Source of the DNA: a bacterium
Lineage (GTDB): Bacteria > Patescibacteriota > Gracilibacteria > UBA4473
DNA: 64,000 nt
Reading direction: 5' to 3'
Assembly (NCBI GenBank): GCA_009995455.1
Contig: JAACPJ010000002.1
Location: forward strand, 124,001 to 188,000
Part shown: positions 9,340-63,999 of the stretch, piece by piece
Numbering within the stretch: position 1 is the first letter of the stretch
How the letters are laid out: each line of letters opens with the position of its first letter
Position numbers and translations under genes: made by a program
The notes under the pieces: generated by a model
Told to the model about the DNA's origin: nothing
What the model saw: the letters and a program-made list of their open reading frames with translations, nothing else
The model's database searches: none

Positions 9340-9627
9340 ATGTCTTTTGGAGAAATACCCTCTAGTCACGAATCACCTTCCCCGAGCGCTCAAGTGCTGG
9401 TGGAACGCTTAATGCCCAGTTTTGAAACGGTCGAAACACAAGAACAAGCGATTGATGCGATACTCGAATTGAAAATGCAGTGTGTTGAGAATGGGGTTGA
9501 TTTTAATGAAGCTACCATGCTAACCGCGGGTTTAGCAGAAACCGCACGGAGTGTCGGTATCGGTTTAATCAGAGGCGTATTAACCAATCCACAAGGATTA
9601 ACCGCCGTTGGTCAGTTATTAAGTTAA
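9340..9627 (+). CDS. small hypothetical protein, 95 aa
   Basis: ORF with TATAAT about 7-12 nt upstream; divergent from yebC. Confidence 0.55.
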   Translation: MSFGEIPSSHESPSPSAQVLVERLMPSFETVETQEQAIDAILELKMQCVENGVDFNEATMLTAGLAETARSVGIGLIRGVLTNPQGLTAVGQLLS

Positions 9628-9703
9628 TATTTTAAAAGAACAAAAAAAGAGCCCAACTTTTCCCCTTAAACAAAGGGTTATAAGAAGTTTAAGCAAAAAA
9701 GTT

Positions 9704-9732
9704 TTGACAAGAGAGATAGTTCTGATTACTAT
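9704..9732 (+). promoter_or_regulatory. sigma70-type promoter
   Basis: TTGACA (9704-9709), 17 nt spacer, TACTAT (9727-9732). Confidence 0.75.
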
Positions 9733-9823
9733 GTTCTGAACACTTCGCTTCAACTTAAAAACACCAAGCAGTGCTTCACCAAAAGAGACAGAGAAAGGTT
9801 AGGAACACAGACGGAGACAGGGA

Positions 9824-9982
9824 ATGATCTTTTACAACAACGGTAACCAATTCACTTCTTTCCCACAGAAAGAAGACGAATTACTACATAAAACAGTGGA
9901 GAGTAAAGAGCCGAGACACTTTATTCAGAACTTATATCCTCACCCAACGTACTCGTCGGTGCACGGCACAAGTTCTGCATAA
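9824..9982 (+). CDS. possible 52-aa small ORF inside the candidate RNA
   Basis: ATG preceded by GGAG; MIFYNNGNQFTSFPQKEDELLHKTVESKEPRHFIQNLYPHPTYSSVHGTSSA stop. Below the ORF-track threshold. Confidence 0.35.
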   Translation: MIFYNNGNQFTSFPQKEDELLHKTVESKEPRHFIQNLYPHPTYSSVHGTSSA

Positions 9983-10482
9983 ATCCCGTTCATTCGGGCC
10001 TCGTTTCTTTTCTCTCCGCTCTGCGACGAGGTTTATAAAGCCTTAAAACCACTTTATAAATTCCCTTCACAAAACGGTTGAGAACAAAATGCTAGTCCTT
10101 GATTTGATTCTAAAATAACTGATTCAAAACGTGTTTACCGCAAGGCAAACACAATCAAAAGACATTACATATTGCAATGCCTTTTCGATTCCAACCACTA
10201 ACGTTTTGTAGAGGTCTAAACACTTGGTTCGCACTATAAATAATTTACCTTTGAAAGTAAATACCCTGATAGCGCATATGAACCCCGTAGGTACTTCGGT
10301 ATAGTACCCAAGCAAGGCGAGAGTTTATGTAGGCTGGTAACCTATAGAATCTTAGGAGCGGCTCTAATTCACTTATATTAATAAGACCTGATTAATCCAC
10401 CGCTCCTGATTCGTTTCTTTTCTTAAGAACAAAAGTTCCGAATTACGATTCATTTACGCAAAACACAAATTCAAAAATGAAC

Positions 10483-10520
10483 AACTTCTAAATCGCACTT
10501 AGCGTCTTAGAAGTTTTTTT
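10483..10520 (+). terminator. intrinsic terminator of the candidate RNA
   Basis: AACTTCTAA-at-CGC-actta-GCG-tc-TTAGAAGTT then T-run. Confidence 0.85.
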
Positions 10521-10701: not shown

Positions 10702-11676
10702 ATGAAAGCCCATTTACTTATCGCTGGCCTCGCACTCCCTATCACAAGTTTTGCCTTTAGTGATATTACTATTCGAGACCAAGTATACGACTCAACTACC
10801 TATTTAGAAGCGGTTGAAGTTTTTAAAGGCTATGACGACGGTTCATTTGGGCGCGATAAAACTATTAATCGAGCTGAAGCGCTTAAAACAATATTAACCG
10901 CGGCTGAATTAGAAATGCCAGAGAGCACCACGAATCGTTTCAGCGACGTGCCAGATGGAATTTGGTTTGCCCCTTACGTAAATTATTCTGCTTCAGAAGG
11001 CATTGTAAAAGGCGATGATACAACCGGTCTTTTTTCTCCTGGAAGAAACGTAAATAAAGCCGAGTACTTAAAAATGCTAATGCTTTCCTTTGATGTGGAT
11101 CCTTCGCAATACCCGGTTATTACAGACGTAAAAATCAATGACGTAGAAGATGGCATTTGGTACGCGCCTTATTTTAAATTCGCGGTTAAGTTTAAAATCT
11201 TAAATGTAGATGGAGAAAATAACATCAATCCAGGCGAAGAGTTAAGTCGAGGCCAAGCCGCAGAAATTTTATTCTCTATGATTCGCCAAGGTAAAGGCTT
11301 AAAACCTCAAGTCTTACTTAACCTTTCAGAACTACACTTACTCAAAGCCGTTGAATTTATGGATATGGAGTCTGTAGCCACCGCCCAAATTTTGGTAGAC
11401 GTAGCCAGTATGTTCTCCACCTATACGTTAGAAATGTTACCAGAAAATAACATTGTTCAATCGGCCGACCGAGTTATCGAAGCCATGAAATTATTAACCA
11501 CCACTTTCTCCATGAGAGCAGAAGGAAATTACGATGCCGCTATTCAAACCGCTAAAGATGCTTGGGCCAAAGCGGATGAAAGCTTACAGCTTAATCCACA
11601 GAACAAACTATTAACGGATAAAATCAAAGAAATAGCGGCTGGTATCGCCGATAAAGCTCGAGCAGAGCAATCTTAG
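10702..11676 (+). CDS. S-layer homology (SLH) domain protein with helical C-terminal domain
   Basis: Signal peptide; repeats YDDGSFGRDKTINRAEALK, FSDVPDGIWFAPYVNYSASEGIVKGDDTTGLFSPGRNVNKAEYLK, INPGEELSRGQAAEIL. Confidence 0.88.
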   Translation: MKAHLLIAGLALPITSFAFSDITIRDQVYDSTTYLEAVEVFKGYDDGSFGRDKTINRAEALKTILTAAELEMPESTTNRFSDVPDGIWFAPYVNYSASEGIVKGDDTTGLFSPGRNVNKAEYLKMLMLSFDVDPSQYPVITDVKINDVEDGIWYAPYFKFAVKFKILNVDGENNINPGEELSRGQAAEILFSMIRQGKGLKPQVLLNLSELHLLKAVEFMDMESVATAQILVDVASMFSTYTLEMLPENNIVQSADRVIEAMKLLTTTFSMRAEGNYDAAIQTAKDAWAKADESLQLNPQNKLLTDKIKEIAAGIADKARAEQS

Positions 11677-63572: not shown

Positions 63573-63999
63573 GGGGGTGCACTGGCTTCGACGGAGTGAA
63601 TCGAAGCTCTGTACGGGCGTTTTCGGTTGGCACAGCGTACCGGTTATCCACGATGTGCAATTCTAAGTGCAACAGCATTTACAAGTAAGTTCAACCAACT
63701 TCGTCAAACTGCAGCTCGAGCTTTAGCTCCTGCTCCAGTATTTGCTTAGTTTTTTGGCTTCTAGGATAAACCCTAGTTGAGCCAACGCTCCTAGGTGATG
63801 TCTCGCTTTACCACGCAGCGTTTCATCAAACTCAGTGGTGTAGAATTTAAAATTTGATCGACTTTAAATTTGAATCTCAGATCACCTTTTCAAGTCTTTT
63901 GTCTGCTTTAAAGCTTGAATCGTAAACAAACAGACTACAAACGTAGAACGTGCATTGTTTCCACTGCGGACGCGGGATCGATACCCGCCACCTCCACCA
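63573..63999 (+). ncRNA. ssrA: tmRNA
   Basis: 5' GGGGGTGCACTGGCTTCGACGG, 3' GATCGATACCCGCCACCTCCACCA; acceptor GGGGGTG/CACCTCC; tag ORF ending ...QTAARALAPAPVFA-TAG at 63747-63749. Confidence 0.96.

Follow-up and report, generated by a model that had tools for sequence, protein, structure and literature searches.

Comparative sequence analysis indicates that a gene of Candidatus Gracilibacteria encodes a new class of standalone structured noncoding RNA. The gene was located at positions 9694 to 10520 of the window, the 64,000-nt stretch of DNA that was analyzed (genome G000), and sequence comparison confirmed, with corrections, a standalone noncoding RNA gene that is predicted to make no protein. 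The RNA is kept in at least 32 related genomes from two families, all Candidatus Gracilibacteria. In the reading that we favor, at a probability of roughly 60%, this new RNA class is expressed and probably matured like rRNA, through an exchange of helices between leader and core, and acts in trans as a structural RNA. The original prediction, that of a large structured RNA not described before whose gene has its own promoter and terminator, is supported in that there is no Rfam match, the homologues covary, and coding conservation is absent. The rRNA-type promoter, the boxA-like element, the pseudoknot, and the long-range helix P2 are new to that prediction; the hairpin sequences that it quoted are all present, but several of its pairings were wrong or specific to the genus.

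Gene limits and expression signals

The gene fills a gap of 0.8 kb between a 95-aa ORF (9340 to 9627) and an SLH-domain gene (10702 to 11676). The longest sense-strand ORF in the gap was 52 aa, in agreement with the predicted absence of any above 60 codons. Protein-coding conservation, which the original prediction had counted as evidence against an RNA gene, was not found in the homologue alignment, which shows indels and short unaligned frames. The folding energy was 6.0 SD below that of shuffled sequences on the sense strand, a value that alone cannot choose the strand because the reverse strand scored alike (−6.2). The strand was set from the promoter, boxA, terminator, and homology. The strong terminator that had been predicted is present in the predicted fold with its stem and U run; a motif-based terminator scan missed it, the loop being longer than 8 nt, and it was recovered from the fold. 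The features are listed in Table 1.

The predicted promoter was recovered at 9704 to 9732 and is conserved in homologues. It consists of TTGACA (9704 to 9709), a 17-nt spacer, and TACTAT (9727 to 9732), with 10 of 12 consensus matches. The 13-mer AAAAGTTTTGACA has just two occurrences in the 1.32-Mb genome, one at the RNA gene (C9:133697) and one about 500 bp before the 16S rRNA gene (C13:312114), where it again serves as the −35 region. A promoter in common with the rRNA operon, as in an rRNA-type transcription unit, was thus found in G000, the one genome in which promoter identity was checked.

The leader also has a boxA, by sequence a putative NusB/NusE site and a further mark of an rRNA-type transcription unit. 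Perfect boxA-like GATCTTTNACA was found in 12 of 17 own-family leaders, usually with 0 of 300 shuffles equally good; the second-family form is GATCNTTCACA, present in the leaders of several members. G010 and several second-family members have a degenerate element or none. GATCTTTNACA alone arises by chance elsewhere in the genome (4 occurrences genome-wide versus 5 for the reversed control), so that weight can be given only to the conservation of its position. The order of elements common to the homologues is promoter, motif TGAACACTTCGC, boxA-like GATCTTTNACA, P1, core, hairpin, and terminator.

Gene limits were also defined without folding, from the copies in G016, G000, and G009. G016 carries two copies at unrelated sites; the duplicated unit of 856 bp (94.7% identity, L020:1526-2378) starts shortly before the promoter and stops at the terminator, and so corresponds to the transcription unit. 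A second, partial copy in G000 (L008, C14:1-135) comprises the 3' end of the gene and shows 100% identity along 98 bases, terminator included (C14:1-98). Because it begins at a contig edge, G000 probably has two near-identical copies, like G016. A partial second copy was also found in G007. In G009 (L019:4320-5287), the core from P1 to P10 is a tandem duplicate between one promoter and one terminator, and the two copies are well diverged.

Table 1. Predicted features of the RNA gene, in window positions
Feature	Sequence	Span	Strand	Basis and remarks
Promoter	CAAAAAAGTTTTGACA-N17-TACTAT	9694-9732	+	Promoter scan; 13-mer AAAAGTTTTGACA common only to the 16S rRNA promoter; kept in homologues
Conserved 5'-end motif	TGAACACTTCGCT	9737-9749	+	Directly after the inferred transcription start; a version in 15/17 own-family members
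boxA-like antitermination element	GATCTTTTACA	9826-9836	+	In leader; positional conservation
Helix P1	GTGGAGAG 9896-9903 / CTCTCCGC 10012-10019	9896-10019	+	Encloses a variable extended hairpin; overlaps P2 5' strand
Long-range helix P2	CTCTC 10012-10016 + GCTCTGC 10018-10024 / GCAAGGC 10312-10318 + GAGAG 10319-10323	10012-10323	+	Closes the core
Hairpin P3	TTTATAAAG 10032-10040 / CTTTATAAA 10052-10060	10032-10060	+	0/2000, hand-registered; two-sided changes in 6/9 pairs
Arm P4/P5	P4, ACAAAACG 10069-10076 / CGTTTTGT 10202-10209; P5, GTTG 10077-10080 / CAAC 10192-10195	10069-10209	+	P4 and P5, 0/2000 each
Insert hairpin	GTGTTTACC-GCAA-GGCAAACAC	10131-10152	+	Only in G000 and G002
Hairpin P6	AAAAGACATT 10157-10166 / AATGCCTTTT 10176-10185	10157-10185	+	Two-sided changes in 5/9 pairs; conserved A-C mismatch
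Possible helix P7	GGTTCGCACTA / TAGCGCATATGAACC	10226-10284	+	Read off the alignment; own genus and G010 only
H-type pseudoknot	S1, CCG 10285-10287 / CGG 10297-10299; S2, GGTAC 10290-10294 / GTACC 10304-10308	10285-10308	+	
Hairpin P10	TAGG / CCTA, conserved loop CUGGU	10330-10344	+	0/2000, hand-registered; two-sided changes in 4/5 pairs
Hairpin P11	GGAGCGG / CCGCTCC	10355-10406	+	Fold and alignment; fused with the terminator in G009, G013, G018, G019
Intrinsic terminator	AACTTCTAA 10483-10491 / TTAGAAGTT 10507-10515 + U run	10483-10520	+	Fold; intact in the partial copy G000:C14:1-98

Conserved structure

Sequence comparison shows a core composed of the long-range closing helix P2, hairpins P3 and P6, arm P4/P5, an H-type pseudoknot, and hairpin P10. 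The weight of the structure rests on two alignments, both made with MAFFT blind to structure, because the hand-registered helices were picked for pairing. For the own family (11 sequences; P3, P4, and P6), standard pairs made up 83.8% versus 70.5% after shuffling, two-sided changed cells numbered 44 versus 19.4 (0 of 500 shuffles as high), and the covariation score was 0.408 versus 0.185, with slid partners at 0.169 or below. For the second family (14 sequences; P2, P3, the pseudoknot stems, and P10), the corresponding values were 93.1% versus 85.4% standard pairs and 33 versus 9.1 two-sided changed cells (0/500). Covariation in homologues, the check proposed with the original prediction, was thus found in two alignments, beyond all 500 shuffles and far above the slid controls. 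Sequence and covariation together establish the gene, the identity of its promoter, the boxA-like element, and the core helices.

The 9-bp hairpin TTTATAAAG/CTTTATAAA of the original prediction is P3, which covaries strongly, and its GGAGCGG/CCGCTCC is P11, in which both strands change in step in the two genus relatives. The long-range pairing of CAAAACGT (10125 to 10132) with ACGTTTTG is not conserved, because 10125 to 10132 lies at the edge of an insert that most homologues lack; the covarying partner is ACAAAACG at 10069 to 10076. The arm P4/P5 has a conserved bulge on its 3' side. The hairpin in the insert reads GTGTTT/AAACAC in G000 and GTCTTT/AAAGAC in G002, and the other members are without it. 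The proposed CCTCG/CGAGG pairing was discarded, since CCTCG is part of P1 and in G001 is altered while CGAGG stays the same. GGTAC/GTACC held up as pseudoknot stem S2, but the C(UUCG)G beside it is part of the pseudoknot and forms no tetraloop. This stem, as P8 alone, was not significant in the own-family hand-registered test and was renamed after the second family was compared; with hand registration across both families, 0 of 5000 shuffles were as good for S1 and 2 of 5000 for S2. The P10 loop is CUGGU in the own family and CACCUC, CUCCUC, or CGCCUC in the second family (L117-L132), where it resembles the anti-Shine-Dalgarno end of 16S rRNA.

P2 joins CUCUC(C)GCUYUGC, immediately 5' of P3, to GCAAGGC..GAGAG, 3' of the pseudoknot. 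Compensating changes turn GCUUUGC/GCAAGGC into GCUUUAC/GUAAAGC in G003, with GCUGUGC/GCACGGC in G255 and GCUCUGC/GCAGGGC in G215, and the outer part in G017 is CUUUC/GAAAG instead of CUCUC/GAGAG. The covariation of P2 is modest (118/5000 by shuffling) because the inner helix is almost invariant. The 5' half of P2 doubles as the 3' half of P1. P1 is replaced by GAAAGCCG/CGGCTTTC in G017 and was not significant alone in the permutation test (137/2000); in L121 and L123, it seems not to overlap P2. In RNAfold, which ignores pseudoknots, P2 usually reached a probability of 0.7 to 1.0 when the core was folded by itself, whereas the presence of the leader mostly brought it below 0.2. The exceptions were G017, L119, and L120, which do not favor P2 in the core, and L126 and L127, which retain it with the leader. 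Because P2 is predicted as near certain without the leader and near zero with it in most members, we propose that the RNA may pass from P1 to P2 in a leader/core helix exchange.

Distribution and comparison with known families

BLAST against 60 relatives gave full-length homologues within the genus and partial ones in four further genera, and covariance models built from these homologues extended the list of members. With the two methods combined, the RNA was detected in 16 of 20 own-family genomes (G000-G003, G006-G010, G012, G013, and G015-G019) and was not detected in G004, G005, G011, and G014. The second family of the class carries a compact form in at least 16 genomes; an exact 17-letter motif matched 16 second-family genomes, versus one reversed-control match in 360 genomes. 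Gene size across the members is 0.35 to 0.9 kb. Neither the covariance models nor the motif gave a match in most of the class. Weak model matches in G003 (C57), G011, G202, G211, and G227 look coding or unrelated and were dropped on inspection. G034, of a third family (L133), has the 5' motif of P2 and a plausible 3' strand for it: GCUUUGCGAUGGCG, then GUGAGGC some 140 nt further on, and then a 3' hairpin GGCUCAGUGA...UCAUUGAUAGCC that resembles that of the second family. This locus may represent a third branch with a shorter RNA, a doubtful assignment by sequence.

The Rfam scan proposed with the original prediction matched no family: among the 4227 families of Rfam 15, only chance-level matches were found, all below gathering scores at E ≤ 5 (OLE, ROOL, GOLLD, raiA, HEARO, group I/II introns, 6S, SRP, RNase P, and tmRNA included). 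Eleven homologue-bearing loci likewise gave no family match, SRP included. These scans agree with the earlier remark that signatures of RNase P, SRP, 6S, and tmRNA are absent, and on their basis tmRNA, introns, and other known RNAs were rejected. RNase P RNA was rejected as well; it was found normally in G000, the one genome tested, and its true gene lies at C13:213927-214299 (RF00010, 148.6 bits). The raiA motif/ModT was rejected for want of an RF03072 match. No paper describing the RNA was found in the literature. A separate observation concerns the tmRNA gene at window positions 63573 to 63999, which has an unusually long predicted tag, ATAFTSKFNQLRQTAARALAPAPVFA, of 26 aa.

Alternative explanations

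The neighbors of the RNA gene vary by lineage (SLH protein, YebC, RuvB, S1 protein, LeuRS, SecD/F, and others), which argues against a leader of a single conserved gene and for action in trans. A cis-acting long leader or attenuator of the SLH-domain gene at 10702 to 11676 would fit the four genomes where such a gene lies downstream (G000, G001, G009, and G010) and is scarcely credible overall; it was rejected because a terminator stands between the two and other neighbors (RuvB, S1 protein, LeuRS, Bax inhibitor family, MurB) are found in G007, G012, G013, G015, G016, G018, and G019. The ruvB gene adjoins the RNA gene in five genomes (G012, G013, G018, G019, and G006; L079, L080, L083, L084, and L085), and yebC adjoins it in G000 and G010. 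This recurrence suggests an ancestral yebC/ruv neighborhood and a long-resident chromosomal gene. It also speaks against an intron or a large RNA of mobile or phage origin, comparable to ROOL and GOLLD, in favor of which a size near 0.8 kb, the two copies in G016, and the partial second copies in G000 and G007 might be cited. Such an origin is very improbable and was rejected, as no match was obtained to the ROOL, GOLLD, or intron models of Rfam or in 2.9 million viral contigs (searched by pattern), 50,697 phages, and 72,556 plasmids.

A regulatory action in trans on RNA polymerase or mRNAs, in the manner of 6S RNA or by antisense pairing of exposed loops, would accord with high inferred expression and with the conserved unpaired motif in the P10 loop, but is unlikely: the loop sequence differs between the two families, and conservation lies mostly in the compact multi-helix core, not in one exposed loop. 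The single long promoter-like bulged hairpin of 6S RNA is also missing; 6S RNA itself was rejected on the covarying multi-helix pseudoknotted structure and the lack of an RF00013 match. The RNA was further considered as the missing SRP RNA, strongly altered and Ffh-binding, because the small and large bacterial SRP RNA models gave no match in 40 to 41 Gracilibacteria genomes, with most control genomes positive; in these genomes, SRP RNA is either lost or diverged past recognition. A chromosomal RNA present in one or two copies and carrying expression signals like those of rRNA would suit that role, and AGCAAGGCAG bears a loose resemblance to SRP AGCAGCCAAGGCAG. We consider this identity improbable and largely rejected, as helix 8 is absent: its signature AGG-stem-GNRA-stem-AGCA occurs in 0 of 32 members, although the same pattern detects the E. 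coli sequence, and the AGCA is base-paired in P2. Moreover, the RNA was undetected in most families that likewise have no recognized SRP RNA.

Proposed function

By analogy with rRNA, we infer that the RNA is abundant and made under rRNA control. In the rRNA of E. coli, the antitermination complex is loaded by boxA, and the leader bears boxB/boxA/boxC and leader helices (PMC10250234). Our inferences on the new RNA, from antitermination and processing to its abundance and cellular role, give the following course. Transcription would be driven by the strong rRNA-type promoter, and the boxA-like leader element would load an antitermination complex that lets the polymerase pass the strong internal structure. 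In the fresh transcript, the leader would pair with the strand CUCUC(C)GC as P1. Leader trimming or RNP assembly would then free this strand to pair with the 3' GCAAGGC..GAGAG as P2, closing the core that holds P3, P4/P5, P6, and the pseudoknot. The mature RNA would work in trans, abundant and probably as a ribonucleoprotein scaffold tied to translation or growth.

Cells of the candidate phyla radiation, in which this RNA occurs, have heavily reduced genomes. A role in a core process is likely because such cells keep an RNA gene of 0.35 to 0.9 kb under an rRNA promoter motif. A structural RNA or RNP tied to translation would be the most likely role. More tentatively, and with the odds against it, the RNA may be an essential housekeeping RNA found only in Gracilibacteria, whether as a ribosome-associated RNA, a new ribozyme, or an SRP RNA replacement, gated by a leader/core exchange that both families retain. 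Concrete targets for mutants and structures are the pseudoknot with its covarying stems, helix P2, and the predicted exchange. That about forty Gracilibacteria genomes apparently lack a recognizable SRP RNA is a question apart from these.

To our knowledge, large structured RNAs of a new class are seldom found in bacteria, and OLE, ROOL, GOLLD, and raiA are still without a biochemical function. Like bacterial SRP RNA (4.5S), a housekeeping chromosomal RNA unrecognized in the class, whose gap it might fill, the RNA is chromosomal; it differs in having no helix 8, no Rfam match, and another topology. With the pre-16S rRNA leader it has in common the promoter 13-mer (in G000), a boxA-like element, and a leader helix that needs undoing, but the part downstream is an unrelated pseudoknotted core and not rRNA. 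The raiA motif RNA/ModT (RF03072) is also a standalone pseudoknotted bacterial RNA, and its abundance in growing cells rivals that of rRNA (PMC11706538); the promoter leads one to expect a similarly high abundance of the Gracilibacteria RNA. Reports of ModT come from Bacillota and Actinomycetota; it has two pseudoknots and its own P1-P8, and its covariance model gave no match here. In one strain, ROOL reached the abundance of 16S rRNA (PMC12286853). ROOL and GOLLD occur mostly in phages and prophages near tRNA islands, whereas the Gracilibacteria RNA is chromosomal. It resembles OLE, ROOL, and GOLLD as large, ornate, standalone many-helix bacterial RNAs of unknown biochemical role, and it is distinguished from them by matching none of their models, by its rRNA-type expression signals, and by its occurrence in Gracilibacteria only.
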